Shown here in pieces: positions 42,018 to 59,933 of a stretch of DNA of 64,000 nt (position 1 is its first letter; the number at the start of each line of letters is the position of its first letter). The notes under the pieces were generated by a model that was not told where the DNA came from, did no database searches, and worked only from the letters and a program-made list of their open reading frames with translations. The stretch covers positions 1,550,001 to 1,614,000 of the forward strand of contig NZ_CZQA01000001.1 in NCBI RefSeq assembly GCF_001458735.1. Reading direction: 5' to 3'. A program made the translations under genes and the position numbers. Source of the stretch: Candidatus Nitrospira nitrosa (GTDB lineage Bacteria > Nitrospirota > Nitrospiria > Nitrospirales > Nitrospiraceae).

Positions 42018-44741
<2,724 letters not shown>

Positions 44742-44954
44742 AAAAAAATGTCGGGGTGAAGACGATGATGAATAAAAATAGATCGTGGAGTATACAGCAT
44801 CTTTTCGGTGAATCCTACCGGATCCTCCGGCAGCATCTCCGGTGGCTTGACAGGCGTTGTTTCGGTCGCCTAGTATGCGAGAGTTGTTGCATCTGTAGCA
44901 TGTGTAGGCATGTCAGTGGTTAATCCGAACACTATTTGAGAAGTGCGTTCGCGC

Positions 44955-45260
44955 ATGAGTCAGACATTCCGAAAGTTTCTTTCAATAGCTCTTGTACTCT
45001 GTGTTCTCGCTATTGGGGGATTGGCCCAGGCGCAAGCCGCTGAACATGCCGGACACCATGCTCAGCATCAAACGGCCACGCACGGGACGGTTCTCTGTTC
45101 CTGGATGTGTGCTGCCGGTACAGTGCTCGATAGCAATGTCGTGGTTCTTGAGGCTGAACGCAGCCCCATTACTCTTCTTCCTCTTCCTCATTCGAGTGAC
45201 CTCGCCGCTGAGCCGGTTCGTATTTCTTCCAGTCGTGCGCCCCCATCCCTCTTCTTGTAA
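44955..45260 (+). CDS. Small secreted His/Cys protein, paralogue 1
   Basis: The 101-residue product has a signal peptide ending in AQA. The mature part begins with a spaced His set (H31, H34, H35, H38, H43) and then C48-S-W-M-C52. A variable middle leads to a C-terminal SSRAPPSLFL. The spacing H-x2-HH-x2-H-x4-H-x4-C-x3-C is identical in paralogue 2 at 47099. Such a ligand set could bind a soft or borderline metal ion (inference). I know no named family that fits. The start is the Met at 44955; a GTG four codons earlier is possible. The barrel gene follows 114 bases downstream. Confidence 0.65.
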   Translation: MSQTFRKFLSIALVLCVLAIGGLAQAQAAEHAGHHAQHQTATHGTVLCSWMCAAGTVLDSNVVVLEAERSPITLLPLPHSSDLAAEPVRISSSRAPPSLFL

Positions 45261-45374
45261 TCTTTTGTCTTTCGTCGCGTTAGTCAGAGTCGTTTCATCA
45301 AACTTGGCTATTGCGACATATCCCGCAGCAGGAAGTTTACAGGTCGTTTCTGGGAGAGAAGGACTCCGTTGATC

Positions 45375-46505
45375 ATGGCAGTCAAGCGTTCTATATGTTC
45401 GTTCTTGCTGGTGCTGATTCCGTTCGCGCTGGCCTGGCCCTTGGATCGGCCAGCTGAGGCGGCCTGTGGGTCGGTGACCTGTTTTGTCGTGGTCGGTTCC
45501 CAGCAACAGGTACCACAAGCGGGGCTCCTGACATTCAACACGATGTACAACTACACGCCGATGCGTTTGCTCGATGGGACCAACGGGGTGATTCCCGCCA
45601 TTGACCAGGCGAACCGTCGACTGATTTTGGATCACCACCAAGAAGTTCGTACCATCACGCAGACCGTCAACTTCGATCTGAATTACGGTATCACGGATCG
45701 GCTGGGTGTCCAGGTGACAATTCCGTATCTCTGGCGGACCCATAAGCATATCGATGGGTTGGGAGAAGATGGAGACAATGGGCGAGGAGAACTGGTCCCA
45801 TTTCGAGACAATGGGATCGGCGATATGATCATTACGACGAAGTACAATGTGCTCCCTACGCTCCGAAGCATGATTGTCCTGGGGTTTGGTGTACAAGTGC
45901 CGACTGGTCGGACCAGCGCCAGAGACGATGCCGGTGAGTTGATGGAGTCGCCGACCCAATTGGGACGTGGCCAGGTGGGGCTCATCGGATCGCTCTATCA
46001 AACCTACGAATTGATCCCTCACCGGCTCAATCAATTTTTCTACGGCAGCTATCGGCATACGTTCCGGAATAACGATGGGTATCAGTTTGGGGATGAGTAC
46101 AACCTCAATCTCGGTGCGAGCGGCGTCCCATTCGAACAAGCGCCCTGGTTGGTCCTGACGGGTCAGTTCCACTGGCGGTATCTGGTTCATGACAATATCA
46201 GCGCATCACTGGAACGATCTGCCACGCCTGCTGATGCTCCTGACTTCCCAGGCGAGACGATCGTGCTTGATCCTACGATCTCCAACCGCCGGGTCCCGAC
46301 CACCGGCTCGACCTACTTTGCGTTTTCACCGGGATTTCAGGTCAGTCTCGATGGATTAATTGATTCCCCGTTGACCAAGTGGACGTCGATCTATTTCCAC
46401 TCACAGATTCCTATCATGAGAGATTCGAATAACGGGCTCGCTCAGGGGATCAGCTATATCTTTGGCGTGACGAGGTCGTTCCAGTTAACGAAGACTGGCA
46501 CCTAA
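45375..46505 (+). CDS. Outer-membrane-barrel-like protein (transporter-type), paralogue 1
   Basis: The 376-residue protein has a signal peptide, then CGSVTCFVVVGSQQ at the mature N terminus. About 12-14 amphipathic beta strands follow (LDLNYG..DRLGVQVTIPYLW, GIGDMIITTKYNVLP, YQTYELIPHRLNQFFYGSYR). It ends near an aromatic strand (SYIFGVTRSFQL). The strand pattern resembles the MetA-pathway/PF13557-type outer-membrane proteins often labelled transporter. Two more copies lie at 47507 and 54042. The invariant Cys pair at the mature N terminus is unusual for a barrel and may form a disulfide or a metal site. The substrate is unknown. Confidence 0.72.
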   Translation: MAVKRSICSFLLVLIPFALAWPLDRPAEAACGSVTCFVVVGSQQQVPQAGLLTFNTMYNYTPMRLLDGTNGVIPAIDQANRRLILDHHQEVRTITQTVNFDLNYGITDRLGVQVTIPYLWRTHKHIDGLGEDGDNGRGELVPFRDNGIGDMIITTKYNVLPTLRSMIVLGFGVQVPTGRTSARDDAGELMESPTQLGRGQVGLIGSLYQTYELIPHRLNQFFYGSYRHTFRNNDGYQFGDEYNLNLGASGVPFEQAPWLVLTGQFHWRYLVHDNISASLERSATPADAPDFPGETIVLDPTISNRRVPTTGSTYFAFSPGFQVSLDGLIDSPLTKWTSIYFHSQIPIMRDSNNGLAQGISYIFGVTRSFQLTKTGT

Positions 46506-46539
46506 GAACGCGAGCAGCATGCCGAATGGAGAGATGACG

Positions 46540-47088
46540 ATGAGAACGTACAATTCAACGAACATTGCAGCACTGGCACTGAGCTTCACACTCCTGACCT
46601 GCACCAGTCTGGTCTGGGCCATGGGCTCCCGCGTGCCGGCGGTCGGGACGACTGCCGAGGACTTTCGCTTGGCCGATTTGGACGGCAAACAGCAAAGCCT
46701 TAGTCAACATCGCGGCAAGATCGTATTGGTGAATTTCTGGGCGACCTGGTGCAAACCCTGTACGACGGAAATGCCGGCCATGCAGGCCATCTATGAGAAG
46801 CTACGGGACCAGGGCTTTGTGGTGTTGGCGGTCAACGAATTGGAAGACGAACTCAAGGTGCGTGAACATATCACGCAACATGGCCATACGTTTCCAGTGC
46901 TGATGGACCGGGACAACAAGGTGGCAAACCAGTTTGGAGTCTTTGGATTACCGGTCAGCGTGTTCATTGATGAAAAAGGTGTCGTGCAAGAATACATCAA
47001 GGGCGGGCTGCTGACCGAGCAGGTGATTCTCGACGCGGTGGCGCGGATCCAGAAATCGGAACCGATGAAGGCGGCATCGCTTAAGTAG
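46540..47088 (+). CDS. TlpA-type thioredoxin-fold protein
   Basis: The 182-residue protein has a signal peptide or anchor (residues 8-28) and a redoxin domain with the active site WC71KPC74 and the cis-Pro loop FGLPVSVFID. TlpA/ResA-type proteins reduce disulfides outside the cytoplasm, for example in apocytochrome c or copper-centre assembly. The ATG at 46540 is 6 bases behind GGAGAG; Met codons at 46519 and 46534 are alternatives. It lies between two small-protein/barrel pairs, so its targets may be their CxxxC and CGSxxC motifs (inference). A CcdA-like protein at 58262 could supply electrons. Confidence 0.88.
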   Translation: MRTYNSTNIAALALSFTLLTCTSLVWAMGSRVPAVGTTAEDFRLADLDGKQQSLSQHRGKIVLVNFWATWCKPCTTEMPAMQAIYEKLRDQGFVVLAVNELEDELKVREHITQHGHTFPVLMDRDNKVANQFGVFGLPVSVFIDEKGVVQEYIKGGLLTEQVILDAVARIQKSEPMKAASLK

Positions 47089-47098
47089 TCGACGCAAC

Positions 47099-47407
47099 AT
47101 GTTGGCACGGTTGAAACAATCCTGGTTTGTCTGGCTGCTGTTAGTGTGTCTCGTGCTGGTGAACGGGGCAATGGCTGCGCCAAGCGTGGGCCATGCCCAG
47201 CACCATGCAGACCATCAGGCCGGGACCCATTCGACCGGAATCTGTGCCTGGCTCTGTGCGGCCGGGCAGGACGTGGAATCCACGTCGGTGTCGTTGGAGT
47301 CCAGTCTTAAACCGATCGAACAGACGGTCGCCGTTTCCATCAGTCCGATTCATATCTCCGTTTCTCTCCACTCCTTCTTCCGTGGGCCTCCGCTTCTCCT
47401 TGCATAA
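47099..47407 (+). CDS. Small secreted His/Cys protein, paralogue 2
   Basis: The 102-residue product has a hydrophobic signal sequence ending near GAMAAP. The His set H32, H35, H36, H39, H44 is followed by C49-A-W-L-C53, with exactly the spacing of paralogue 1. The C terminus reads FFRGPPLLLA, matching the R(A/G)PP motif of the other copies. The start lies 10 bases after the TlpA stop, so the two are probably one transcript. The barrel paralogue 2 follows after 99 bases. The function is unknown; extracytoplasmic metal binding is a guess from the ligand pattern. Confidence 0.68.
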   Translation: MLARLKQSWFVWLLLVCLVLVNGAMAAPSVGHAQHHADHQAGTHSTGICAWLCAAGQDVESTSVSLESSLKPIEQTVAVSISPIHISVSLHSFFRGPPLLLA

Positions 47408-47506
47408 CGCCTGCAGTCGGCAGGTGTTTTCTTAACAACCGTGTCTCGCGGCGGGTTTCGATGATCGGATTCCGTCGTGTCACAACACAGAAAGAGTTTG
47501 GGAATC

Positions 47507-48577
47507 ATGGTACGGACGATCTGGTCCAGGGTCATTAGTGTCGGTGGTGTAGTTGGAATGTTGTTCTCGATGCTCAACCCATCCTGGGTCGAGGCATCGT
47601 GCGGGTCGGTCAGCTGTTTTGTCGTGATCGGGTCGCAACAACAAGTGCCGATGAAAGGACTGCTGACGGTCAACGCGATTTATAACTGGACTCCGATGGA
47701 GGCGCCTCCTGGCGAAGGAGGACGAATTCCGTTCGCCAATCAGGGGGACAGAACGCTCACCTTGGCTAACCTGAATGTGAACAGCATCAAGACTACGACA
47801 CGCACTGCGACGCTCGACCTCAATTACGGATTAACCGACCGCCTCGGCATCCAGGTAGCGATTCCCTACAAACATGTCGAGTCCAATGCCCAAATCGGCG
47901 GGCTCGTCCCTGTCCCATACGGTGAGGGGGGACTTGGGGATATTCGGGCTTCGCTGAAGTACAACGTACTTCCCACCTTGCGTAGCATGATTGTGGTCGG
48001 AGTGGGAGTAGATTTTCCGACCGGCAGCTATGGCCAGTTTGCCCAGGGAACCACGTTGGCGGAGTCGACTCTCCAAATCGGTCGAGGCAATTTCGGTATC
48101 GTTCCAATGATCTATCAGACCTATGAACTGATTCCCCATCGGGTGAACCAATTTGCATCGGTCAGTTATCGGCACACGTTTAAGAACAGTGACGGATACA
48201 AGTTCGGCGACGAAGTGAGCGGGGCGTTGGGCCTCAATGTAGTCCCGCTGGAACAGACGCCGTGGTTAGTGCTGACGCAGCAGTTCAATTTCCGATGGAT
48301 GCAGAACGACGCCATGGACGCGTCGCTGTTTCAGTTCAACCCAGGAGGGTCGCCCATCCTGCTCGATCCAGCGATCAAATTTCGGGCCGTCCCGACAACC
48401 GGATCAACCTACGTCGCCTATTCACCGGGGGTCATGCTCAATGTGATGAACTTCGCCTCGTTCTATTTCATTGCACAAATTCCCATTCACCGAGACTTCA
48501 ACGGCAACTTGGAGCAGCAGATCAGCTACATCTTTGGGATGACCAAGTCGTTCCAATTGTTCGGCGGAGCTTCTTAG
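47507..48577 (+). CDS. Outer-membrane-barrel-like protein (transporter-type), paralogue 2
   Basis: This 356-residue copy has a signal peptide, then ASCGSVSCFVVIGSQQQVP. The barrel-like body repeats the landmarks of paralogue 1: LDLNYGLTDRLGIQVAIPYK, GGLGDIRASLKYNVLP, YQTYELIPHRVNQFASVSYR, and a final SYIFGMTKSFQLFG. The sequence is clearly related over its whole length, with differences mainly in the loops. The ATG at 47507 follows GGGAATC; an upstream GTG at 47477 is less likely. The pairing of a small protein directly ahead of a barrel is the same as at 44955-46505. Confidence 0.74.
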   Translation: MVRTIWSRVISVGGVVGMLFSMLNPSWVEASCGSVSCFVVIGSQQQVPMKGLLTVNAIYNWTPMEAPPGEGGRIPFANQGDRTLTLANLNVNSIKTTTRTATLDLNYGLTDRLGIQVAIPYKHVESNAQIGGLVPVPYGEGGLGDIRASLKYNVLPTLRSMIVVGVGVDFPTGSYGQFAQGTTLAESTLQIGRGNFGIVPMIYQTYELIPHRVNQFASVSYRHTFKNSDGYKFGDEVSGALGLNVVPLEQTPWLVLTQQFNFRWMQNDAMDASLFQFNPGGSPILLDPAIKFRAVPTTGSTYVAYSPGVMLNVMNFASFYFIAQIPIHRDFNGNLEQQISYIFGMTKSFQLFGGAS

Positions 48578-48610
48578 GGAATCAATGAGAACGATGGTAT
48601 CGAGTCGGCC

Positions 48611-48955
48611 ATGGTAAGGAAGATGCGAAAAGAGATTTCTCGGGTTTTGACCGGCTGCTGGGTTGTGCTCTGGCTGACCGGGTCTCTCTCTGTCGCACAG
48701 GGGAATCTGTTGCCACAATGGAACATGCCCCACTGCCCGAGTGGGCAGGCACAGCACAGCCAACAGAGCCATAACCATTGCGCGTGGCACTGCAGCGGTT
48801 TCGATATTCAGAGTAGTGGCGGACGAGGCGAGACTCCCGCAGATCTCCAGCTAGGTCTCGTCTGGAGTCTTGGCACCATTCCCTTTCAGCACGCCGATGT
48901 GGATGGCCAATATCCACCCCGTGGTCCGCCGCAGGCTATTTTGGAGATTGCATAG
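48611..48955 (+). CDS. Small secreted His/Cys protein, paralogue 3 (divergent)
   Basis: The 114-residue product has an N-terminal hydrophobic segment (residues 11-30). Its His residues are more scattered (H41, H49, H54, H56), an extra Cys42 is present, and the signature reads C57-A-W-H-C61. The C terminus has YPPRGPPQAILEIA, so the R(A/G)PP motif is kept. It is the most divergent of the five copies. It is followed 76 bases later by a beta-propeller lipoprotein instead of a barrel. The start could also be the Met at 48623. Confidence 0.6.
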   Translation: MVRKMRKEISRVLTGCWVVLWLTGSLSVAQGNLLPQWNMPHCPSGQAQHSQQSHNHCAWHCSGFDIQSSGGRGETPADLQLGLVWSLGTIPFQHADVDGQYPPRGPPQAILEIA

Positions 48956-49031
48956 CACAAATTCGTTCAGGGCGCCGGCTGCGCTCCCATTAATAACGTT
49001 GAAATGATTATTCGCGAGGAAGGAACGTTCC

Positions 49032-50498
49032 ATGGAAACGAGGAAGACAAGCAACTTTATTTCGAGTATTACAATCAGCGCATTAGGGCTTGCGCTGATT
49101 AGCCTTGCGGCGTGCAATTCAGGGGAAACCACCACGGCAACACCGGTCTCTGGCGGTAGCGCAGGTAAGGCCAGTGCATTGGTCTTCGTCAACAATACCG
49201 GAGACAAGACGCTGACCAGCGTGGCGTTGAAGGGCAATTCTGGCAACGCGGTGGTGAACACGATCGATGCGGCGGAGTTTGAGAACGTGGCTCTCGGAGA
49301 CATGCAGTTCTCAGATAAAGATTGGGTCTTTTTAAATCTTGCTGCAGCGAACAAGGTCGCGACGATCGATCCACTCACAGCGGCGACCCCGGTTCATGAG
49401 GCAAATCTAGCGGCGGGCACGCGCCCGGTTCACCTCTATCGGGACAGGAATGATGGCCAGGTAATTTGGATCATGAACGACGGTGACAATGCCGCCGGAA
49501 CTACGACTCCCGGCGACGATTTGATCAATTGCGCCTCGTCGGGTGGGGGGTCAGTCACAGTGATCCACAATTCGCACCTCGGCCCAGGAGGGACGCCGCC
49601 TACCGTACTCGGAACAACCTGCCTTTTGGCTGATGGACATAAGGTCGCAGCCTTTGCAGAGAATAAACGAGTCTTTGTCTCCAGTGAAACCGGCGGCGAA
49701 ATTGCCGTTGTTGACGGGGATGAGACCTCCACGAACTATCGCAAGATGATTGCGCGCATCGATCTATGCAAATCGTCGAAAGAGACGACACCCTGCAATG
49801 ATGAGTCTGCAACGCCGATCACGACGGCGTTTACGCCGAATGCCTCAGCTCCGCACGGTATCCGCTGGTCAACATTGACGAAGAAGGTCTACAGCATTCA
49901 AGAAGGATATGGAGAGATTGCGGAGATCGATCCAGCAACATTGGCCATTACCAAGACCTTTGATCTTGCCGGAACTCCTTACACATCGTATGGGATTTCT
50001 CCTGACGGCAAGTATTTGCTTTTGCGCGGAGAAACCACTGCCCCTCAGGCAACGAAGCTTGGTGTCATCGACTTAAGTGCGGCAGTTCCAGCTATTGCTG
50101 ATTTGACGATTCCAGAACTGGATGGAACTTCGGCGGGGGCATACAAGTTTGCCCCGAATTCCGGACGGTTCTATATTCTAGCGGGGAATGGAGCAACGGC
50201 GACAAAGAAAGACCGATTGTTTGTCTTTGATTGGACCACTGTGGCGCCTCCAGCACTCACGCTGTTGAGGGAGATTCCGCTGGTGTCGACTGGTGGGCAC
50301 GGCTTCGATATCTTGGCTGAAGGAGCCGGTGAAGCCAAGTATCTGGCAGTGTCGAATGCAGCGCCGGCGAATTCGCTGACGATCATCAATGCCACCGATA
50401 ATCAGGAAAAGCAGACGGTACCCGTCGGAGCAAATCCGGGAGGGGTCATGGTATTCGATTCCGGGGCGGCCTTGGCGGGCAACCAAGCCTCCAATTAA
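49032..50498 (+). CDS. YncE/YVTN-like beta-propeller lipoprotein, paralogue 1
   Basis: The 488-residue protein has a lipoprotein signal with the lipobox LAAC28. The rest consists of repeated beta units typical of seven-bladed propellers (LVFVNNTGDKTLTSVAL, then VATIDPLTAA, VYSIQEGYGEIAEIDP, YGISPDGKYLLLRG, SLTIINATDN). Conserved with the copy at 55131 are WIMNDGD, VIHNSHLG, IDLC and four other Cys outside the lipobox. There is no haem motif. An AGGAAGG-type ribosome-binding site precedes the ATG. A role in binding a small ligand or a partner at the cell surface is possible; no substrate can be named. Confidence 0.75.
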   Translation: METRKTSNFISSITISALGLALISLAACNSGETTTATPVSGGSAGKASALVFVNNTGDKTLTSVALKGNSGNAVVNTIDAAEFENVALGDMQFSDKDWVFLNLAAANKVATIDPLTAATPVHEANLAAGTRPVHLYRDRNDGQVIWIMNDGDNAAGTTTPGDDLINCASSGGGSVTVIHNSHLGPGGTPPTVLGTTCLLADGHKVAAFAENKRVFVSSETGGEIAVVDGDETSTNYRKMIARIDLCKSSKETTPCNDESATPITTAFTPNASAPHGIRWSTLTKKVYSIQEGYGEIAEIDPATLAITKTFDLAGTPYTSYGISPDGKYLLLRGETTAPQATKLGVIDLSAAVPAIADLTIPELDGTSAGAYKFAPNSGRFYILAGNGATATKKDRLFVFDWTTVAPPALTLLREIPLVSTGGHGFDILAEGAGEAKYLAVSNAAPANSLTIINATDNQEKQTVPVGANPGGVMVFDSGAALAGNQASN

Positions 50499-50605
50499 AG
50501 GAAGAGTGGAGTGGAGACAGAGCGGTCCATCAGAGTGCAATGGAGACTCTGATGGGCCACCTGGCGACTCTTGGACAAGAGTGCGAGAGCTAGAGAATGT
50601 GGCCT

Positions 50606-50690
50606 GTCCGAGCCGGCTGCCTTCGGCTCGGATTCAGCGCGGGGTGGAGGCGCTCCTCCCTTGGCCTTCGCCCCGCACTTTTTTATTGGG
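50606..50690 (+). terminator. Two-hairpin element copy A, with T-tract (candidate terminator)
   Basis: The first stem is formed by GTCCGAGC and GGCTCGGA. The second has GCGGGG and CCCCGC arms around a long loop and is followed by CTTTTTTATT. It lies between the propeller lipoprotein and tonB and would end the upstream transcript. It is the only copy with a good T-tract. Confidence 0.6.
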
Positions 50691-50736
50691 CATGTTGGGC
50701 TTGCATAAGTGGTGTGGGAACAGCCATAAGTGATAC

Positions 50737-51603
50737 ATGGCATTGGTGGGTGAAAAACAGTTTGTGGTTCCTGCCTGGGCCATCTCATTGGTTCTGCATG
50801 GAGTGGTCGTTGGTCTATCCTTTGCATTTTCAGCACAGATCAAGCCTCTTGTGCAGAAAAATCTCTTCAGCTGGAATGTAGCCCTCGTGCAGCAAGCAAC
50901 TGACGTTTCACAAGCAGAGCCGACAGAATCGATAACCGCATCGGTGAAGCCGGTAGTAAAAAAGGTTCTTCCCGCACTGCCTAGGCCTGTGCCGGAACCG
51001 TCTCAGCCCATTAGGCCGACGGAACAGAACATTGAAACGCCGCCGCCAACGATCGTGCAGCAGTCAGCGGTTCCTCAAGTACGTGAAGAGCCACCTGAAC
51101 AACGGGTAGTTGAAGTGACTGAGGCCAAAACTCAGCCAATCTTGGAATCAAAGGAGTCCATGGCATCTACGACTCCGTCCGAACCAGGTGAGTCTCAGCT
51201 GTCTCAGCCGGAACCGGCTGTGAATCCAGCAGTTCCTGCCGTGACTTCCGAAGCTCCGATTTCTCAAGAGAATGCGGTTAGTGCTGTTGCGATGTCTGGT
51301 GCTGAAGCGAGGACAGACAACCGATGGTTGGCTGAATCATTGTGGCGTCGGGTCGCAGAGCTGAAGCGCTATCCAAGCGCTGCCCGTCTGAATGGGCAAG
51401 AAGGAAAAGTCATTCTGAAAGCCGTCATTCGATCGGATGGTCAGTTGGCTGATGTCGTTGTGCAGAAAAGCTCAGGACACAGCGTGCTCGATGAGGCAGC
51501 GATCGAAGCGGTCAAGCTCGCATGCCCGCTTTATATGAAACAGGCCATTGGAAAGCCGCAGATCGTCGTGAGTCTGCCCATCGTGTACAGTTTGGCAAAC
51601 TAA
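50737..51603 (+). CDS. tonB: Energy transducer TonB
   Basis: TonB passes energy from the inner-membrane proton gradient to outer-membrane receptors. The 288-residue protein has an N-terminal membrane anchor (residues 13-30), a Pro/Glu-rich periplasmic spacer (about 60-190) and a C-terminal TonB domain with ELKRYPSAARLNGQEGKVIL and SSGHSVLDEAAIEAVK. No ExbB, ExbD or TonB-dependent receptor with a plug domain occurs in the window. Its place in the small-protein/barrel region suggests that some outer-membrane component here needs energy input, but the barrels show no TonB box that I can identify. Confidence 0.9.
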   Translation: MALVGEKQFVVPAWAISLVLHGVVVGLSFAFSAQIKPLVQKNLFSWNVALVQQATDVSQAEPTESITASVKPVVKKVLPALPRPVPEPSQPIRPTEQNIETPPPTIVQQSAVPQVREEPPEQRVVEVTEAKTQPILESKESMASTTPSEPGESQLSQPEPAVNPAVPAVTSEAPISQENAVSAVAMSGAEARTDNRWLAESLWRRVAELKRYPSAARLNGQEGKVILKAVIRSDGQLADVVVQKSSGHSVLDEAAIEAVKLACPLYMKQAIGKPQIVVSLPIVYSLAN

Positions 51604-51740
51604 GGATGTATGGGCTGCGTGCAGTGCAGCGCTGGATTGAAAACATCACATGATGAAAGTTTGTGGTGCAGTTATGAGTAACCGTAGCAGACAAGTTCTG
51701 AGCATTCATGTATAGTGCAACCCTGATAATAGGGACCGGA

Positions 51741-52097
51741 ATGCACGTGAATCGCTTACGCCACTCATTGTCTCATCTTTCAATCGCCGGCTGTGCAGCG
51801 TTACTGTACGCTGTACTGCTTGTCCTGGGCAGTAGTTGCAATCTGGTTCATGGTGACCTCAATCAAAGTCATCACCACCATCATACTGACGAAGATTCAT
51901 CCGCCGCGGACCAGTTCTGTGCCTGGGCTTGTCAGGCTACGGCGGACACGGTAGCGGTAGGTGGGCCACCACTGACTGTCAGGAATGTCGATAGTGAGCC
52001 GGTAGAATTCACTTCCACTGGACTTCTTTTCTCCACATATTCTTCCGCAATCCATTCGCGGGCACCTCCTTCGAGTTTTTTCGTCAGGTTTGCCTAA
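51741..52097 (+). CDS. Small secreted His/Cys protein, paralogue 4
   Basis: The 118-residue product has a long hydrophobic signal (residues 14-34) and a His run (H44-H48) in an acidic context (TDEDSS). The signature is FC60-A-W-A-C64-QATADT, and the C terminus reads SRAPPSSFFVRFA. It is closest to paralogue 5 at 53125; the two share nearly identical signal-peptide and CAWACQAT regions. The ATG at 51741 has AGGGACC upstream. No partner gene follows directly; instead come the two-hairpin repeats. The function is unknown. Confidence 0.65.
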   Translation: MHVNRLRHSLSHLSIAGCAALLYAVLLVLGSSCNLVHGDLNQSHHHHHTDEDSSAADQFCAWACQATADTVAVGGPPLTVRNVDSEPVEFTSTGLLFSTYSSAIHSRAPPSSFFVRFA

Positions 52098-52184
52098 TTC
52101 GTACCGAGCAGTCGTGCTCTCGTGTGCTGGTACGATTGAGCCTGCTTGCGCCCATTTCACAATCAAGCTGTCGGTGTGTGACTC

Positions 52185-52262
52185 GTCCGGGAAGGTGACC
52201 CTCCCCCCGGACCAAGCGCGGGGCGAAGGTTGGCTGCCTCCATCTTGGCCCCGCCCTTTATA
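52185..52262. repeat. Two-hairpin element copy B
   Basis: It reads gtccgg...ccggac for the first stem and GCGGGGCGAAGGT paired with CTTGGCCCCGC for the second, ending in CCTTTATAT. It lies 88 bases after the stop of small protein 4. Confidence 0.7.
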
Positions 52263-52366
52263 TCCGAGGGAGTGACTGTCGAAAGTTGTGAGTCAAGCGC
52301 GTGTGTCAGCAAGAAGCAGTGGCCTTGGAGCCCGGGGTACTACGCAGTGCAAGTGAGTGTGAGATA

Positions 52367-52864
52367 GATGGACTGTCCGAGCAGGTGGCCTCCCGGCTCG
52401 GACCAAGCGCGGGGCGAAGGTTGGCTGCCTCCACCTTGGCCCCGCCCTTTATCACAGAGTGAATCAGTGTAGGGGGATGACGATCAAGAATGCTTTCTAG
52501 GCCTACAACGCATGCAGAGGAGCGGAATACTCCTGTGCAGATCCAGTGTCGGCAATGGTGGAAGTGGGATGGATGGACTGTCCGAGCAGGTGACCCTCCG
52601 GCTCGGACCAAGCGCGGGGCGAAGGTTGGCTGCCTCCACCTTGGCCCCGCCCTTTATCACAGAGTGAATCAGTGTAGGGGGATGACGATCAAGAGTGCTT
52701 TCTAGGCCTACAACACATGCAGAGGAGCGGAATACTCCTGTGCAGATCCAGTGTCGGCAATGGTGGAAGTGGGATGGATGGACTGTCCGAGCAGGTGACC
52801 CTCCGGCTCGGACCAAGCGCGGGGCGAAGGTTGGCTGCCTCCACCTTGGCCCCGCCCTTTATAT
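52367..52864. repeat. 205-bp tandem repeat (two full units and a partial third) carrying two-hairpin copies C, D and E
   Basis: Units start at 52367, 52572 and 52777, exactly 205 bases apart, and are almost identical. The third stops after 88 bases. Each contains the two-hairpin element (52375-52452, 52580-52657 and 52785-52862). Its stem 1 is GTCCGAGC/GCTCGGAC. Its stem 2 is GCGGGGCGAAGGT/ACCTTGGCCCCGC, with one mismatch. The near identity means recent duplication. Confidence 0.85.
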
Positions 52865-53124
52865 CCTAATAAGACCGCGCTCGATTATCGTTACGAGCGT
52901 TCTGGGGCATCTTTGTGAGGGGAGCCTAGCGCAGTGATGGCCGAAATTTATGGTGGTACCGGACGGCTCCATGCAGGACCAAGCTTATGTTGTCAAAAGT
53001 GTAGCATCCGTGAGCAATGGTGAGTATGCGTAGGTAGACAGCTATTAAGCGCTCATGTACAAGAGCACCTATTGTAGATAGAGTCGTAAGAGCCTAAGTG
53101 GAACAGCACGTTGGGGCTGAGAAC

Positions 53125-53472
53125 GTGAAACGATTGAATCGGACCTTCTATAGTCTTTCCATTGTCGGCTGCACAGTGCTGATGTATGCCGCACTTGTCG
53201 TGCTGAGTGCAGGCTGTGCACTGGCTCATGCCGACCAGACCCAGGCGCATCACCATCATAGCGAGGAGAGTTCATCCTCTCAAAGTGCATTCTGCGCCTG
53301 GGCTTGCCAAGCGACATCGGATATCGCCTCCGTGGCTGAACCATCCATGGGGGTTGTCTGGTTGGTCACCGAGCCTCAAGTACTGCCTTCAGCTGTTTAT
53401 CCTGTTTCTTCCGTTTCAACCCTACTTCATCCTCGAGCGCCTCCAGTCACTACCCTTCTCGCGCGTGGATAA
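53125..53472 (+). CDS. Small secreted His/Cys protein, paralogue 5
   Basis: The 115-residue product is read from the GTG at 53125, which aligns with the start region of paralogue 4; a GTG at 53098 is an alternative. It has a hydrophobic signal (residues 10-35, probable cut after ALAHA). The His run is H42-H45 followed by SEESSSS, then FC57-A-W-A-C61-QATSD. The C terminus reads HPRAPPVTTLLARG. Like the other copies it has no recognisable named domain. It is followed by another two-hairpin copy and then the small DNA-binding protein. Confidence 0.62.
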   Translation: MKRLNRTFYSLSIVGCTVLMYAALVVLSAGCALAHADQTQAHHHHSEESSSSQSAFCAWACQATSDIASVAEPSMGVVWLVTEPQVLPSAVYPVSSVSTLLHPRAPPVTTLLARG

Positions 53473-53555
53473 GGATCACAAGGGGCGTACGCGTTCTCGC
53501 TAACGTCCTGGGATGATGCTTTCCACGATTTTTCAATTGTGACACATAACGGTTC

Positions 53556-53631
53556 GGTCTGAGTCAAGCAGCCGTTGGCTCGGACGAGTGCGGGGAGAAG
53601 GTGCTTCTTCCTCGGCCTTCGCCCCGCCATT
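53556..53631. repeat. Two-hairpin element copy F (divergent)
   Basis: The sequence has a GTCTGAG...CTCGGAC first stem and GTGCGGGGAGAAGG with CCTCGGCCTTCGCCCCGC as the second. It lies between small protein 5 and the excisionase-type gene. No T-tract is present. Confidence 0.55.
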
Positions 53632-53708
53632 TGAACAGGTGACGACGGTAACGAGTCATTTCCCGATTGTGGTACGGAAACATTCAGGAAAGTTATGGAG
53701 GGTTCATC

Positions 53709-54023
53709 ATGGATGTCATCGGCATGTTGCAGAACAAACAGTTACTCCGCGTAGACGAAGCCGCAAAGATTCTTAATGTCAGCCGCTGGACGGTGTATCG
53801 ATGGGTCGAGGCCGGTCGGCTGGGTGGCACACGCTTGGGCGCCGGCAGTTTGAGAATTTTCAGCCACACTGTGGCAGCCCTCATCGATCTCCATTGCGTC
53901 GGAGCGATCCAGGCAGAACACGTCGATGTACCGACCAAGCACAATTCACTCAAGCCCCGGGCGGTGAGCGCACGGTCTCTAGGTCGCGAAACGAGCCGGT
54001 TGCGACAGGCTGCCGCAGTCTGA
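53709..54023 (+). CDS. Small excisionase/MerR-type helix-turn-helix protein
   Basis: The 104-residue protein has a single DNA-binding domain of the HTH_17/excisionase type: LLRVDEAAKILNVSRWTVYR, then WVEAGRLGGTRLGAGSLRIF (about residues 11-55). A basic tail follows. The ATG at 53709 follows GGAGGG at a good distance. Proteins of this type regulate transcription or assist site-specific recombination, but no integrase is near, so a local regulator is more likely. It ends 18 bases before barrel paralogue 3. Confidence 0.8.
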   Translation: MDVIGMLQNKQLLRVDEAAKILNVSRWTVYRWVEAGRLGGTRLGAGSLRIFSHTVAALIDLHCVGAIQAEHVDVPTKHNSLKPRAVSARSLGRETSRLRQAAAV

Positions 54024-54041
54024 CTCGAGGTCTCAACGCCG

Positions 54042-55094
54042 ATGCGCCGTGCAGCGTCATATCTGTTGCTTGCCCTGCTGAGTCTGTGGGGGGGGTACTC
54101 CTCTGCTGAGGCATCTTGTGGCTCAGTCAGCTGCTTTGTGGTGATCGGGTCACAGCAGGCAATCTCACCGGCAGGGGTCTTGACCGTGAATCTCAGCTTC
54201 ACTCATACACCGAATGAGATTCCGGCAGGGGGGGTGAACACCATTCCCTTCGCCAACCAGCAAACCAAGCAATTGATTTTGGCTAATAGCCAAGTCAGTC
54301 AACTGAGTACGCTGGTTCAAACTGCGGTATTGGATCTCAATTACGGACTCACCGAGCGAATCGGCATCCAGGTGCAAGTGCCGTATCGCATGATCGATGC
54401 CGTCGGACAGATCGGCGCCGCCGCAGTCGCGAACACATTCGACCGAGGGTTCGGAGACGTGTTGGGAAAGGTGAAATATAATCTGCTGCCGAGCCTGCGC
54501 AGTATGGTCGTTTTGGAAATGGGCGTGTGGTTTCCAGTCGGTGACTACGGAAACATGCCTGTCGCCGGGCAGCTCGCTGAATCCACCCTGCAAGTCGGCC
54601 GCGGGGCATTTGGAGTGCAGCCGGGGTTCTATCAAACCTACGAGCTCATTCCTCATCGACTGAATCAGTTCCTGTCGGGCAACGTCCGATATACATTCCG
54701 TAATTCCGATGGCTATCGATTCGGAGAAGAGTTTTCTGTCAATGCGGGACTGAATTTGGTCACGTTTCCGTGGTTGACGCTCACGAACCAAATCAACTTT
54801 CGCTATAAAGGTAGAGACAATATCGAAGCTGCGCTGTCTGAGTTCCAGCCGGCTCCGGTGAACCGGCCCGTCTTGCTCGATGGAAATATTATCGGGAGGT
54901 CCGTGCCGACCACCGATCATACGTATGTAGCCTATTCAACTGGGGCCGTAATCAACGTTTTCGACTTTGCTCAGGTCTATTTCATCGCACAGATTCCGAT
55001 CTATCGCGACTTCAACGGTAATTTGCAGCAAGAAATCAGCTTTGTGGGAGGTGTCACCAAGTACTTTACGACGCCGTCCCTGTTTAAACAGTGA
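54042..55094 (+). CDS. Outer-membrane-barrel-like protein (transporter-type), paralogue 3
   Basis: This 350-residue copy has a signal peptide, then ASCGSVSCFVVIGSQQAISP. The body follows the other two paralogues: LDLNYGLTERIGIQVQVPYR, FGDVLGKVKYNLLPS, YQTYELIPHRLNQFLSGNVR and a C-terminal FVGGVTKYF. It is closer to paralogue 2 than to paralogue 1 by eye. Here the gene ahead is the HTH protein, with the small protein further upstream. It is followed by propeller paralogue 2 after 36 bases, so the two are likely co-transcribed. Confidence 0.74.
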   Translation: MRRAASYLLLALLSLWGGYSSAEASCGSVSCFVVIGSQQAISPAGVLTVNLSFTHTPNEIPAGGVNTIPFANQQTKQLILANSQVSQLSTLVQTAVLDLNYGLTERIGIQVQVPYRMIDAVGQIGAAAVANTFDRGFGDVLGKVKYNLLPSLRSMVVLEMGVWFPVGDYGNMPVAGQLAESTLQVGRGAFGVQPGFYQTYELIPHRLNQFLSGNVRYTFRNSDGYRFGEEFSVNAGLNLVTFPWLTLTNQINFRYKGRDNIEAALSEFQPAPVNRPVLLDGNIIGRSVPTTDHTYVAYSTGAVINVFDFAQVYFIAQIPIYRDFNGNLQQEISFVGGVTKYFTTPSLFKQ

Positions 55095-55130
55095 GGAGCG
55101 ACCACACAGGCGCTGTGAGGCAACATAATC

Positions 55131-56672
55131 ATGGCACACACGATCTCTCTCAACGGACGCCAAGATCGGCTCAGGTGGTGGCGAAGATACACAATCTTTC
55201 CAGTCGCCATTCTCCTCAGCGCGTGCTCTGGCGCCGGTGACAGCGACCAAGCTCCAAACACACCCCTCACGACCCCGATGGCATTTGTTGCCAATCAAGA
55301 CGACACCACGCTCACCACGGTTCGACTCGACGGGAAAGCGACACCCGTGATCAGCACACTCTCACTCGGTCCACCACAGGCTGACGCGATCGGTGGAGTC
55401 GCCTTTTCGCTCGGCGAGTGGATATTCGTCACGAATTCCACCACAAACACAGTCGCGACGATCGATCCGATCAGTGCAACGGCGCCGATTCTTGAGGAGT
55501 TTCTGGTCGAGAATCCACTGGATACCAGAGTCAAAATCGGGCAGCGGCCGACCCGTATCTATAGAGATCCGGTCGATAAGGAAGTGCTTTGGACCATGAA
55601 CGACGGTGATCCGACTTCCGGTCTTGATACGGTCGCGAACTGTACGAAGGGAGGATCGGTCTCGGTCCTGCATAACTCGCATCTCGGCGTCGGTGGGGGG
55701 GATAAACCTCGCGTGACATCGATCGTCTGCTTGTCCGGGAAAGGCGAGCACCGCATCGCTTTCGTCGGACCGCCGGTTGTTCCGGAGGAAGTGGCGTTTG
55801 TGTCAAGCAGCGCGACCGGGCTTGTCAGTGTGCTGCTTCCTGTGGCAACGGCAGACGAGAGCATTGCCTGGAGCGAGTTCTCTCTAAAAATCGATCTGTG
55901 CGACAGTACCAAGGAGCTGTCGTTGGGCCATCCGGTGTGTGACACGGACGCGACGACCCCCAATCATTCATTGCCGTCTGGTTTATTCTGGTCGCGTGCG
56001 ACGGGAAAGATCTACGCTCACCTAGCCGGGTATCAGTCGGTTGCCGAGATCGACCCAGGTTCTCTCTCAATTACGCGGCGAGTCGATGTAGCAGCGGATC
56101 TTCAACAGGCGGAAATCATGCCGGACGGCCGACATCTTTTTATGATGGGGGTCGATCTGACCAGTGATCCGAGTAAAATCATCGGAAAGTTGGAGCTCCT
56201 TGATCTGACCCAAGGAACGCTCACCCTAACCGGTGCACGGGTTGACCATGTATGGCCGGCACAATTTCGCCTCACACCGGATGGAACCCGGCTCTATCTG
56301 ACACTGGTGAATAGGACCAGTGGTCTCACTCCACAGCAAGCTGCGGCGATGAAAAAGGATAAACTGATGGTATTCGATATGACGATCTTCCCCACCCCCT
56401 TTCGGGCAGTGGCAGAAGTCGACTTGCCGCCGGTCGGTGTGCTTGGTGCGCATGGCTTGGATGTGTGGGCGACGGGTTCGAGCGGAGCAGGGTCGGCGAA
56501 AGGTATTGTCGTGACGAATGCTCCGCATGGCGCCAACGGGTCCGTCTCGTTGATCGATGCATCGACCAATACGATCACGGGAACCATTCCTGTGGGACGA
56601 AATCCGAAGCAGGTCTCAGTGTACTATGCCGGACTTGTGGCCAGCGATAACCAGGCCACGCCGACCTGGTGA
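55131..56672 (+). CDS. YncE/YVTN-like beta-propeller lipoprotein, paralogue 2
   Basis: The 513-residue protein has a lipoprotein signal with LLSAC32 and a propeller-like body related over its length to the copy at 49032. Shared features are the opening MAFVANQDDTTLTTVRL, VATIDPISATAPI, YRDPVDKEVLWTMNDGD, VLHNSHLG, IDLC and a closing SLIDASTNTITGTIPVGRNP. Cys residues outside the lipobox occur in conserved pairs (NC...VC, LC...VC) and may form disulfides. No haem motif is present. The immediate neighbours are barrel paralogue 3 and a TPR protein. A cell-surface binding or scaffold role is plausible but unproven. Confidence 0.75.
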   Translation: MAHTISLNGRQDRLRWWRRYTIFPVAILLSACSGAGDSDQAPNTPLTTPMAFVANQDDTTLTTVRLDGKATPVISTLSLGPPQADAIGGVAFSLGEWIFVTNSTTNTVATIDPISATAPILEEFLVENPLDTRVKIGQRPTRIYRDPVDKEVLWTMNDGDPTSGLDTVANCTKGGSVSVLHNSHLGVGGGDKPRVTSIVCLSGKGEHRIAFVGPPVVPEEVAFVSSSATGLVSVLLPVATADESIAWSEFSLKIDLCDSTKELSLGHPVCDTDATTPNHSLPSGLFWSRATGKIYAHLAGYQSVAEIDPGSLSITRRVDVAADLQQAEIMPDGRHLFMMGVDLTSDPSKIIGKLELLDLTQGTLTLTGARVDHVWPAQFRLTPDGTRLYLTLVNRTSGLTPQQAAAMKKDKLMVFDMTIFPTPFRAVAEVDLPPVGVLGAHGLDVWATGSSGAGSAKGIVVTNAPHGANGSVSLIDASTNTITGTIPVGRNPKQVSVYYAGLVASDNQATPTW

Positions 56673-56719
56673 AATCCGTCTACATCATCCCGTTCTGATC
56701 ACAATGGAGAGAGGGCCAT

Positions 56720-57841
56720 ATGATGTCGAATCGAGTCATACTGATGACCCCGAGCAGGTGTAAACGACGGATTCATCCCACCCTTCTTCTCGTCTGGCTG
56801 CTGGTGGGCCTTTTTACATCAATTCAAGCCGAGGCGGCACCGGCTGATCGATGGCAGCAGTTGACGGACGAGGGAACACTCGCGCGTGAACAGGCCAGGT
56901 ACAGGCAAGCGGAACAGGTCTTTCTGGCGGCGGCTCAACAGGCAGAGCAATTTGGCGTGACCGATACACGCGTGGCAGCGACGTTCAACAATTTGGGATT
57001 GGTCTTTCATGAGCAAGGACAGTATGCAAGAGCGAAGTCTTACTATGAGCGGGCGTTAGCCGTCTGGGAGCAGGCGCTCGGCACTGAACATGCCGAGGTG
57101 GCGACCGCTCTACATAACCTAGCGGAAGTCTATCAGCAGGAAGGTGAGCTTGAGCGGGCCGAGGCGTACTATCTACGGGCACTCACGATAGGAGAACGAG
57201 TTCTAGAGCCAGGCCATACTCAGTTGGCAATCGCACACAACGGATTGGGAGTTCTCTACCGGAAAGAGGGGTATCTCGTTCAAGCAGAAACGAGATTTCA
57301 TCTGGCGCTAGCCCAGCTGGAACGGCAGGATGGAACCGAATCAACCGACCTCGCGCCGATTCTGAACAATCTCGCATCGCTCTATAAAGAAAAAGAGTTG
57401 TACGTCTTTGCCGAGCCGCTCTATCAGCGCGCGCTGGCCATTCGCCGCGCGCATCTCGGAGACTCGCATCCCGCAGTTGCCATTTGCCTGAACAATTTGG
57501 CCAACCTCTACCATGCCGAAGGACTCCATGAACTTGCCGATCAGCGCTATCGCCAGGCGATTGCCAGCAATGAGGGTTCAAAGGAACCGTCTGAAGGACT
57601 GATGGCCAGTATTCTTGGCAACTGGGCGATGCTCGCGCACGATCGGGGGTTACTGGATGAGGCGCGGTTGAGGTATGAACGGGCGCTTGTCATTCAGGAA
57701 CAGACGCTGGGAAGAAGTCATCCCATGGTGGCCATGCTACTGGATCGCTATGCTGTGCTGCTCCATGACTTCGGACAGTCATTGCAGGCCGGACTGATGG
57801 CAACCAGAGCGTCGGCCATTCGGACACAAGGAATCAAATAA
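56720..57841 (+). CDS. Secreted TPR-repeat protein (kinesin-light-chain-type repeats)
   Basis: The 373-residue protein has a signal peptide (about 17-40) and about seven TPR units of 42 residues. Their signatures recur: NNLGLVFHEQGQYARAKSYY, HNLAEVYQQEGELERAEAYY, NNLASLYKEKELYVFAEPLY, NNLANLYHAEGLHELADQRY. Repeats with this length are typical of TPR_10/12 arrays that bind partner proteins. The location outside the cytoplasm suggests a scaffold for the envelope proteins encoded upstream (inference). It follows propeller paralogue 2 by 47 bases with GAGAGAGGG ahead of the start. Confidence 0.88.
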   Translation: MMSNRVILMTPSRCKRRIHPTLLLVWLLVGLFTSIQAEAAPADRWQQLTDEGTLAREQARYRQAEQVFLAAAQQAEQFGVTDTRVAATFNNLGLVFHEQGQYARAKSYYERALAVWEQALGTEHAEVATALHNLAEVYQQEGELERAEAYYLRALTIGERVLEPGHTQLAIAHNGLGVLYRKEGYLVQAETRFHLALAQLERQDGTESTDLAPILNNLASLYKEKELYVFAEPLYQRALAIRRAHLGDSHPAVAICLNNLANLYHAEGLHELADQRYRQAIASNEGSKEPSEGLMASILGNWAMLAHDRGLLDEARLRYERALVIQEQTLGRSHPMVAMLLDRYAVLLHDFGQSLQAGLMATRASAIRTQGIK

Positions 57842-57892
57842 CGCAGTTCCCAGTGATCGGTCATGAGACGATCAGGTGAATGAGGCCACGAT

Positions 57893-58258
57893 ATGAGGGT
57901 ATTCGATGAGCATGTCGCAACATCCATCTGCACGAGAGGCAGGTTCTCGCTGTGTGCTCTGGGGCTCATGGCGAGCATGTGGCTCGGGGGATGTGGGGCG
58001 GTGTTGACGGAAATTCCTGAATTGAATACCGCTGATGGGCGGGTGTTTGCTCAGCGGTGTGGGGCCTGTCACGGAAAGCCGTTTGGTAGCCATGGCATCA
58101 CGCACGGCGTGCCGGATCCACGGTTCCGGACCATAATGGAATGGCAAGAAGAGTTGACCAGGATGGACAGCCTCATGCGTGAAAAGGGGATTCAGCCCCT
58201 GACAGGATCTGAGCGTGAAGCAATCGTCCGGTATTTACACCGTCATGCGAAGTCGTAG
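57893..58258 (+). CDS. Small c-type cytochrome, probable lipoprotein
   Basis: The 121-residue protein has an N-terminal hydrophobic segment ending in a possible lipobox (WLGGC34) and one haem-attachment motif, C56GAC59H60. A Met further on (M82, M91 or M95) may be the second axial ligand. The fold is that of a short class I cytochrome c, and it would transfer electrons in the periplasm. It lies just before the convergent CcdA-like gene, with only 3 bases between the two stops. Confidence 0.82.
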   Translation: MRVFDEHVATSICTRGRFSLCALGLMASMWLGGCGAVLTEIPELNTADGRVFAQRCGACHGKPFGSHGITHGVPDPRFRTIMEWQEELTRMDSLMREKGIQPLTGSEREAIVRYLHRHAKS

Positions 58259-58261
58259 AGC

Positions 58262-59179
58262 TCAAGCGGACCGATCAGTTCGCGTCTTCGAAAAAGTGCG
58301 GCCGGTAAGATAAAAAACATAGGCTGGTACTAGAGGCAACACACAAGGCGAGAGGAAAGACAGCAGACCGGCTAGTGCGGCGATTAAAAAAGAAGGAGTG
58401 TCACTACCGAGAAAGCCTGCCTCGATATAGAAATTGTTCTCTTGTGCCCATCGGGCGATGACGGCGAGCTGTTTTGTCAGGAGTGCAAAGCCGATCAGAA
58501 CGAGCAGCGTACCGTTGATCAGCTGAATGGTCCGGATATGGCGAGTGAGCGAGCGTAGGAGGCCGTTTGCACGGTCCAGCGCAAGAGCGAAGAGTACGAA
58601 CGGAATTCCCAATCCCAACGAGTAGGCAGTAAGCAGTAAGGTGCTGTGACCGATGGTCGTGCTGTTGTAGCCCAGGGCCATGATCGCGCCCAAGGTCGGC
58701 CCGATGCAGGGCGTCCAACCAGCCGAGAAGAAGATACCCATGAGGAAGGACGGAAGATACCCGCTGCTGTTCCGACCGCTCAGTTCAATTCGTGTGTCGG
58801 TGTAGAAAAGGCGTCGAAAATAATCAATCCCGTCTTTTATCCACCGGACCAGCGGAAACCACCGGACCCCCATTCCCCCAGTAGCAGAATTCTCCAAGCG
58901 GCCAAACCAAGTCGACAGCGTGTCGAACAAACCCATCGTCGCCAGCCCAAAGACAATCACAATGGCCCCACCGATCCTGGCCAGCGAATCGCGAAGGTCA
59001 AAGACCAGTTGACCGATACCACTCACCGCCGTGCCTAGAGCCACAAAGATGATCGAGAACCCGAGCACAAAGAGAAACGCGTGGATCAATGGTTTCGGGC
59101 GCTTCATCTGGGCTCTTGCGACTTCGTCAGTCATCGAGGTGAGAGGGTGTATGTAGATGTGCCTCAATGCCATCGGCAT
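58262..59179 (-). CDS. CcdA-family thiol-electron transporter, apparently circularly permuted
   Basis: CcdA carries reducing equivalents across the inner membrane to TlpA/ResA-type thioredoxins, using one Cys in TM1 (PCVLP) and one in TM4 (PCIGP). Both motifs are intact here, but in the wrong order. The chain begins with what is normally TM2 (HAFLFVLGFSIIFVALG, about residue 33) and TM3. TM4 follows with FFSAGWTPC158IGP, then TM5 and TM6. The chain ends with the usual TM1 module (ALAGLLSFLSPC279VLPLVP). No PCVLP copy is found upstream of the start. Both ends would be cytoplasmic, rich in Lys and Arg. The start is uncertain (59179, 59173 or 59134). Confidence 0.82.
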   Translation of the reverse strand: MPMALRHIYIHPLTSMTDEVARAQMKRPKPLIHAFLFVLGFSIIFVALGTAVSGIGQLVFDLRDSLARIGGAIVIVFGLATMGLFDTLSTWFGRLENSATGGMGVRWFPLVRWIKDGIDYFRRLFYTDTRIELSGRNSSGYLPSFLMGIFFSAGWTPCIGPTLGAIMALGYNSTTIGHSTLLLTAYSLGLGIPFVLFALALDRANGLLRSLTRHIRTIQLINGTLLVLIGFALLTKQLAVIARWAQENNFYIEAGFLGSDTPSFLIAALAGLLSFLSPCVLPLVPAYVFYLTGRTFSKTRTDRSA

Positions 59180-59381
59180 CAGCGATGCACAGTATAAGTT
59201 ATTTTATGCTCACCGGAAGCAATGAACGATGAAAAACCGACTGAACCCATAGTCGTCAGACGCTTCATCCACCAAATCTGTAGCAACAAGAGATCCGAGT
59301 AGCACGTATGAGTAGACGGTGAAGCACGCACTCGGTACAAGGAACCGGATCCTACGGAGAAGCGTACAGAAGGAGGTGCCG

Positions 59382-59933
59382 ATGACACTCAAGAATTGGA
59401 GCCTGGCACTATGTGCCGTTGCGATATTGGGATTTGCCGAAGTCGGCTCAGCGGAGACTGGCTCTGCCCAGGTAAGGTTGAAAGATGGAGAGCCTGCGTT
59501 GCCGGTCGGGTATCGGAATGGACCGAAGTTCTTGACTGAGATTCAGCGACCGGACATCAAGCAAGTCCGCGAGCTATTCATCAATGCCGTAGGCGCCGCA
59601 ACGAAGGCGGGGCAACCGTTTCCAAACGGGACGGTGCTGGTGATGGAGCTCTATAAAGTCAAGCTCGACGGAGAAACGCCTGTGATCGGTCCGGACGGCA
59701 AATTGATGAAGGGGGATCTCGCTAAAATCTTCGTCATGGAAAAAGGTGAGGGTTGGGGACAAGAGGTACCCGAGAATCTCAGGACCGGTCATTGGGTCTT
59801 TGCGGCTTATGGCCCTGACGGGAAAGCCTTGTCCGAAGACTTCAGCAAGTGCCGAGGCTGTCACGCCCCATTGACCATGAAAGACTTTGTCCCTCGCTAC
59901 GATGAATACTTTGAAAAGCGGGTCGCCCGATAA
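59382..59933 (+). CDS. Cytochrome P460-family c-type haem protein
   Basis: The 183-residue protein has a signal peptide (cut likely after VGSAE) and one haem motif C157RGCH161 close to the C terminus. The preceding beta-rich domain (FPNGTVLVMELYKVK, GHWVFAAYGPDGKAL) is typical of cytochrome P460 and cytochrome c'-beta. In ammonia oxidisers P460 converts hydroxylamine, and its haem is cross-linked to a Lys; Lys92 or Lys110 might be the counterpart, but this needs alignment. The ATG at 59382 follows AGAAGGAGG, so the longer frame from 59319 is rejected. Confidence 0.85.
   Translation: MTLKNWSLALCAVAILGFAEVGSAETGSAQVRLKDGEPALPVGYRNGPKFLTEIQRPDIKQVRELFINAVGAATKAGQPFPNGTVLVMELYKVKLDGETPVIGPDGKLMKGDLAKIFVMEKGEGWGQEVPENLRTGHWVFAAYGPDGKALSEDFSKCRGCHAPLTMKDFVPRYDEYFEKRVAR

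Follow-up and report, generated by a model that had tools for sequence, protein, structure and literature searches.

Why does a single envelope gene cluster carry five similar small open reading frames (ORFs) scattered among its genes? The cluster lies at positions 44,955–56,672 of the window, a 64,000-nucleotide (nt) plus-strand stretch of the 4.42-Mb genome of Candidatus Nitrospira nitrosa, and its parts were identified with an ORF list, alignments and Pfam. In our reading the small ORFs are not subunits but leaders, each controlling the gene behind it, and we propose, with a probability of roughly 80%, that they encode copper-sensing translation-arrest leader peptides similar in action to CruR of Bordetella. 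The locus would then most likely serve copper acquisition, with a separate sensor for each segment, and its barrels, propeller lipoproteins, TlpA and TonB would most likely be the regulated products, parts of an outer-membrane system for copper acquisition or handling. The original prediction had listed five small ORFs, three barrels and two propeller lipoproteins on one strand, together with TlpA, TonB and a helix-turn-helix (HTH) protein; both these components and the gene order that it gave are borne out. Two points were absent from it: all five small ORFs end in RAPP or RGPP followed by 4–8 residues, and the fourth has no recognised protein gene behind it.

Each of the small ORFs (upstream ORFs, uORF1–5) combines a hydrophobic N-terminal stretch (read by eye from the sequence) with His residues, a CxWxC motif and, near the stop, RAPP or RGPP (5/5). 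To place these features in a wider context, we used a barrel search in named genomes, which yielded 78 distinct loci (the best 80 of 103 relatives were kept). The titles of these loci read Nitrospira, Nitrospirae, Nitrospirota or Nitrospiraceae, with Nitrosospira (L071) as the one exception, and all counts from the 78 loci and the window concern barrel-bearing stretches. Among ORFs of at least 60 codons, 198 carry R(A/G)PP within the last 22 residues, 190 of them on the plus strand and eight on the other strand; a Cys pair stands upstream of the motif in 188/190 plus-strand ORFs as compared to 0/8 on the other strand. The distance from the second Cys to the Arg in these 188 ORFs, chosen by RxPP, is 41 residues in 122 cases and 42 in 64, with outliers at 38 and 6. 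We repeated the analysis blind to RxPP, choosing ORFs by His and CxWxC located 35–70 residues before the stop (n=192). RxPP was found in 190 of these (RAPP in 104, RGPP in 85 and RFPP in one), and the distance was 41 residues in 123, 42 in 65 and 38 in two, i.e. 41 or 42 in 188/192; the two ORFs that lack RxPP are apparently unrelated frames (L060 and L062), and none of the 192 lies on the other strand. The third positions of the R, A/G, P and P codons vary widely (entropy of 1.58–1.98 bits), so conservation lies in the peptide rather than in the DNA. Across 27 diverse aligned leaders, all drawn from ORFs that bear RxPP, both CxWxC and RxPP are invariant, two His are almost so, and much of the stretch between the two motifs drifts.

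The same design recurs more widely. A strict reading of C-x-W-x-C plus RxPP holds in 29 of 32 further loci from the same genome and more distant ones, some with RPPP or RSPP, and CGSxxCF barrels lie downstream of several. Leaders in L138–L144, from other families of the class, carry RPPP or RSPP at an unchanged position, with CGSxxCF barrels behind L140, L141, L143 and L144. The genome itself holds seven leader matches at an expectation value (E) of up to 2e-5. The sixth, outside the window (C1:1670144-1670437, L090), is followed 653 nt on by a gene for the small metal-binding protein SMBP (29.2 bits, cut-off 29). The seventh is a leader-like ORF (C8:92844-93122, L091) with CQWVQHH in place of CxWxC and a C-terminal RAPP; it lies approximately 100 nt ahead of a long ORF, the N-terminus of which we take to resemble a carboxypeptidase-type domain.

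His and CxWxC combined with RxPP at a fixed spacing of 41–42 residues match the design of the CruR and CutF arrest peptides, and it is this match that leads us to leaders. According to the available sections of the CruR report (PMC9426467), the nascent chain senses copper by CXXC and stalls at RAPP, 45 residues away; Rho terminates transcription when copper is present, and the regulated gene encodes a TonB-dependent transporter. CruR of Bordetella pertussis (bp2923, a DUF2946 protein encoded upstream of bfrG) shares with the leaders described here the exported-type small ORF, the Cys pair, the C-terminal RAPP, the near-fixed spacing and the gap before the transporter gene. The leaders differ in having CxWxC rather than CXXC and a spacing of 41–42 rather than 45, in falling under the Pfam DUF2946 cut-off, in using RGPP nearly as often as RAPP, in their number (five per locus) and in their barrel and propeller targets. 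CutF of Rhodobacter capsulatus likewise has a small exported ORF, CxxxC and a C-terminal proline-rich motif; its sign is opposite to that of CruR, as it raises a copper oxidase with copper via a stem-loop, and its relatives are apparently not all copper-specific (available sections of PMC9973294). Ribosomes stall on RAPP and RGPP, and proteomes avoid both motifs; for CruR, the stall has been placed in vitro at the Pro codons (PMC12992588, available part). The known RAPP/RGPP arrest peptides (ApdA, ApdP, CruR and a Streptomyces set; EMBO J 2025) share the motif, which likewise lies close to the C-terminus of small secretory ORFs. Since that survey, in its available part, left out uORFs with an unknown-annotated downstream gene, barrel and propeller targets could have escaped it.

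Which genes, then, stand behind the leaders? The next gene after the 188 leaders is a barrel in 93 cases, unlabelled in 28, a propeller in 23, TlpA in 12, TonB in eight and HTH in eight; the remainder are followed by nothing (six), an opposite-strand gene (five), TPR (two), another leader (two) or a cytochrome-like gene (one). Of the 28 unlabelled genes, 16 encode 658–815 residues, and the single one scanned (L069) is a TonB-dependent receptor. In L123, L125, L126 and L146 the leader precedes an unlabelled gene that encodes His/Met-rich segments (HTHNKGEFMFTYRYMYMYM in L123 is one example). Seen from the other side, 97 of the 104 barrel-labelled ORFs have at least 700 nt of upstream sequence, and in 96 of these a leader stop lies no more than 1.4 kb before the CGS motif (176–337 nt in 90 and 625–1019 nt in six). 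With start codons set by a simple rule, leader-to-barrel gaps range from 39 to 240 nt, with 77/93 falling at 80–129 nt. The cluster is not a product of chance: the search returned 78 loci with like small ORFs, and 96/97 barrels are preceded by a leader.

As a check, the original prediction named the co-occurrence and synteny of the three families. Barrels and propellers are linked: among 58 propeller genes (in 59 rows, as one gene is listed in two pieces), 56 lie behind a same-strand barrel within approximately 600 nt, some with a small ORF between, and the other two open a contig. Leaders, too, stand ahead of barrels, but they also occur in genomes without a barrel match. Among 395 genomes drawn from the phylum (threshold of 1e-3 for leaders and of 1e-10 for the other two families; scoring covered a part of the first-look candidates), leaders were matched in 153, barrels in 114 and propellers in 52. 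Leader and barrel occur together in 102 genomes, the leader without a barrel match in 51 and the barrel without a leader match in 12, of which 11 lie outside the class and the other is G173. Every drawn genome of the order has the leader, as do 10/20 others of the class and none beyond it. Both families are present in the cultured N. moscoviensis (L055), where the gene order is leader, TlpA, leader, barrel.

Barrels 2 and 3 are 53% and 47% identical to barrel 1, and all three carry CGSxxCF; C32, G33, C37 and F38 are invariant in 22/22 barrels, members chosen partly by that motif. Barrel 2 passes the PF13557 cut-off, and barrels 1 and 3 have no match. A model of barrel 2 built from 22 sequences (predicted local distance difference test, pLDDT, of 77; predicted template modelling score, pTM, of 0.72; 15 strands of at least eight residues) matches the fold of the FapF and COG4313 channels, with 5o67/5o65 and 4rl8 as the best PDB entries. 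FapF appears weakly in a profile search with the barrel (E of 0.001), and identity to these PF13557 channels is 11–15% in the best 20 rows; CGSxxCF near the mature N-terminus is a feature of the barrels described here. The barrels probably act as channels. The two propellers (37% identity) match propeller repeats; their model, from four sequences, is poor (pLDDT of 58), and when the propeller alignment was searched against PDB sequences, the sole match was a short one to a surface-layer protein. Barrel and propeller may form a pair.

If the leaders act as CruR does, then in copper shortage the ribosome would stall on RxPP near the leader stop and transcription would continue into the next gene. 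Copper bound by the nascent Cys/His site would release the stall, the leader would be finished, and transcription would terminate in the gap before the gene, with Rho as the most likely agent; every segment of the locus would thus be switched by copper on its own. Partners of the TonB and TonB-dependent receptor kind point to uptake rather than detoxification, and the receptor (one scanned) and TlpA genes are next in line behind leaders elsewhere. The excess of C over G is 0.208 in leader 3' regions (115 junctions), as compared to gene ends of TonB (0.049, 43 junctions), TlpA (0.014, 88), propeller (0.045, 35) and barrel (0.102, 97), and is compatible with Rho sites at the leader ends. A scan of the region for intrinsic terminators was uninformative (nine sites versus 10.0 expected). 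We also estimated start-site masking as the gain in access when the leader 3' end is freed, at 93 barrel and 22 propeller junctions, with single-base shuffled leader ends as control. At propeller junctions the mean gain is 0.232 versus 0.138 in the control, exceeding 0.2 in 12/22 as compared to seven; at barrel junctions it exceeds 0.2 in 22/93 versus 10.

Several points weigh against this proposal. Copper as the ligand is inferred from the motif and the neighbours, and the Cys site is CxWxC rather than CXXC. All window leaders miss the DUF2946 (PF11162) gathering cut-off of 23.7, with 19.8, 14.3, none, 11.4 and 18.3 bits for uORF1–5, and 8/27 diverse leaders match at E up to 0.1. The leaders stand within the cluster and not at its head alone, and among the 97 barrels that of L042 lacks a leader. 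The C-over-G excess of the window leaders runs from 0.122 to 0.256, being small in uORF3 (0.122), and may partly be a product of codon make-up. A stem masking the barrel start site has no mean effect over 93 junctions (0.060 versus 0.057 in the control), and at barrel 1 of the window access fell by 0.34 on freeing the leader end. Finally, the SMBP gene may be on a separate transcript, parted as it is from the sixth leader by two copies of an RNA element, a clear one of 51.2 bits and a weak one of 20.2 bits.

Behind uORF4 and the sixth leader there is no recognised protein gene within 600 nt; both are followed by copies of this element, a conserved two-hairpin RNA with CCUCC loops that occurs six times in the window, four of them in tandem behind uORF4. 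Searching the loci and the window with a stem pattern turned up 40 hits, 33 of which were aligned, folded and built into model R1; left out were three unlike hits (L038, L042 and L061), three near-identical copies and one hit that overlapped another. R1 matches the genome at seven places with E up to 5e-8 (150/1522 first-look candidates scored): the six window copies and a seventh that follows the sixth leader (C1:1670706-1670809). All seven have a leader or the propeller ahead of them. Across 67 copies (35 sources), pairing is kept in 96.1% of pair cells, as compared to 28–56% in slid controls, and 16/21 pairs show changes on both sides, with 0/500 shuffles as high, the alignment being fitted to the model in both cases. 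CCTCC is present in loop 1 of 47/67 copies, in loop 2 of 53/67 and in both loops of 39/67. Run on 55/79 sources, R1 gave 62 matches, of which the eight lowest-scoring (five of them reverse-strand) were dropped; the nearest upstream feature of the 54 copies placed is a propeller in 20, a leader in 18 (at 60–86 nt in 12), another copy in 10, a receptor-sized gene in four and TonB in two. Among 20 chosen genomes the element is found in 10, all within the genus (10/12, as compared to 0/8 elsewhere); of the two same-genus misses, G108 has a weak copy with filters off (30.2 bits). The chosen genomes hold 33 places: nine begin 81–99 nt behind a leader match, another 20 are same-strand and no more than 5 kb downstream of one, and four are unlinked; the chance expectation for an element within 5 kb of a leader is approximately 0.3%. 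Three of the unlinked copies are in L180, L181 and L182, those in L180 and L181 being followed by a lipoprotein-like ORF that is presumably Slp-like. Rfam, in which the presence of all the cuckoo, CcsR and alpha-r14 RNAs was not checked, gave no match up to E 1 across 44,500–58,500. As a candidate, a genome-wide repeat was rejected for the near-exact tandem copies: the genome has four, all at this locus.

Does the element function as a small RNA? We infer such a function from its likeness to two alphaproteobacterial systems, both compared by description only and from sources available in part: alpha-r14/NfeR1, with hairpins bearing CCUCCUCCC anti-Shine-Dalgarno loops, and CcsR, with four RNAs co-transcribed behind a small ORF. 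The element described here differs in standing behind a copper-type leader and in having no Rfam match. CCUCC is the anti-Shine-Dalgarno core, in agreement with the description of alpha-r14. Only tentatively, copper-sensing arrest leaders in Nitrospira might gate both envelope genes and a structured small RNA of a new kind: in copper shortage the stalled ribosome would allow transcription into the two-hairpin RNAs, single or tandem, and their CCUCC loops, mimicking anti-Shine-Dalgarno sequence, would silence mRNAs such as those of copper enzymes, a copper-sparing response under the control of a leader peptide. The chances are about even that the element is instead simply an intrinsic terminator of conserved sequence. 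Its place behind propeller, receptor-sized and leader genes would fit a terminator, as would TTTT no more than 10 nt after stem 2 in 17/54 copies and the T-run at window copy 1; two hairpins rather than one, CCTCC shared by both loops in 39/67 copies, the four tandem copies behind one leader and the placement of all seven strong matches speak against one.

The leaders, for their part, could use this arrest motif to monitor something other than copper, such as a different metal, the redox state of thiols or protein export. This is unlikely: TlpA thioredoxins are frequent partners, RAPP peptides stand upstream of protein-localization genes in the literature as far as available, and the seventh leader-like ORF lacks CxWxC, but the targets include TonB-dependent receptors, and copper is the signal for both studied peptides of related design, CruR and CutF. 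The combination of His with CxWxC, too, resembles copper sites. We hold it improbable that the sign is that of CutF, with copper binding causing the stall and the genes being copper-induced for detoxification or export. CxxxC is common to both, the barrels are similar in fold to the secretion channel FapF, and propeller junctions gain access on freeing the leader end; yet the TonB and receptor partners point to uptake, and the barrels, lacking a mean gain over control, give no clear support for such masking. Of the predicted metal-related envelope system, the envelope locus stands and a metal is probable, but secreted ligand-binding subunits of a barrel–propeller surface complex are very improbable: the small ORFs have the hydrophobic N-terminus, the His/Cys content and the neighbours for it, against which stand RxPP fixed just before the stop while the stretch between drifts, leaders in genomes without a barrel match and small ORFs ahead of unrelated genes.

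The RxPP copper-leader class is already known; what is new is the multiplied arrangement, the targets and the RNA. Titles and abstract openings of search results contained no description of the leaders, barrels or RNA element in Nitrospira, and the word stem Nitrospir occurs 0, 0 and 1 times in the CruR, CutF and RAPP/RGPP leader papers, respectively (PMC9426467, PMC9973294 and PMC12992588). Nitrospira are key nitrifiers, and competition among them is shaped by copper supply; the outer-membrane copper importer PcoB/CopB is almost confined to comammox members, according to the available part of a 2026 study (PMC13374858). If the copper-arrest reading is right, the leader and barrel families constitute an overlooked copper-handling system with a testable switch, by which a nitrifier short of copper could activate its outer-membrane genes and, it may be, a new small RNA as well. 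Leader peptides controlling a copper-responsive small RNA would themselves be new. The locus suggests that RxPP leaders can multiply, one switch for each segment, and brings in a structured RNA family that has no match in Rfam. Coordinates of its features are collected in the table.

Table. Features of the leader, barrel and propeller cluster, in window coordinates.
Feature	Position	Strand	Basis
uORF1, arrest-type leader CSWMC...RAPP, ahead of barrel 1	44955..45260	+	ORFs, alignment; weak DUF2946 match, 19.8 bits (cut-off 23.7)
Barrel 1, CGSVTCF, predicted outer-membrane beta-barrel	45375..46505	+	relative of barrel 2; no Pfam match of its own
TlpA/ResA-like thioredoxin	46519..47088	+	Pfam; SCO1/SenC 23.5 bits, barely over cut-off 22.8
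uORF2, CAWLC...RGPP, ahead of barrel 2	47099..47407	+	ORFs, alignment
Barrel 2	47507..48577	+	PF13557, 32.0 bits (cut-off 22); model fold
uORF3, CAWHC...RGPP, ahead of propeller 1	48611..48955	+	ORFs, alignment
Propeller lipoprotein 1	49032..50498	+	propeller-repeat matches, alignment; structure model poor
Two-hairpin RNA element copy 1, then T-run; between propeller 1 and TonB	50592..50693	+	stem pattern, model R1
TonB-family protein	50737..51603	+	PF03544, 62.2 bits
uORF4, CAWAC...RAPP; RNA copies behind, no recognised protein gene next	51741..52097	+	ORFs, alignment
Four tandem two-hairpin RNA copies (52171-52271, 52361-52462, 52566-52667, 52771-52872)	52171..52872	+	stem pattern, R1
uORF5, CAWAC...RAPP, ahead of HTH, barrel 3 and propeller 2	53098..53472	+	ORFs, alignment
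Two-hairpin RNA element copy 6, between uORF5 and HTH	53543..53644	+	stem pattern, R1
HTH_17 protein	53667..54023	+	Pfam
Barrel 3	54042..55094	+	relative of barrel 1; no Pfam match of its own
Propeller lipoprotein 2	55131..56672	+	propeller-repeat matches, alignment

On the far side of uORF1, secA (42,018–44,741) is divergent from it here and in many loci; secretion monitoring was rejected as a role for the leaders, secA being opposite in direction and off the leader transcript. Behind the cluster, positions 56,720–59,933 hold genes for a TPR protein, a small c-type cytochrome-like protein (below cut-off), a cytochrome P460 and, on the opposite strand, what we take to be a CcdA-like protein.

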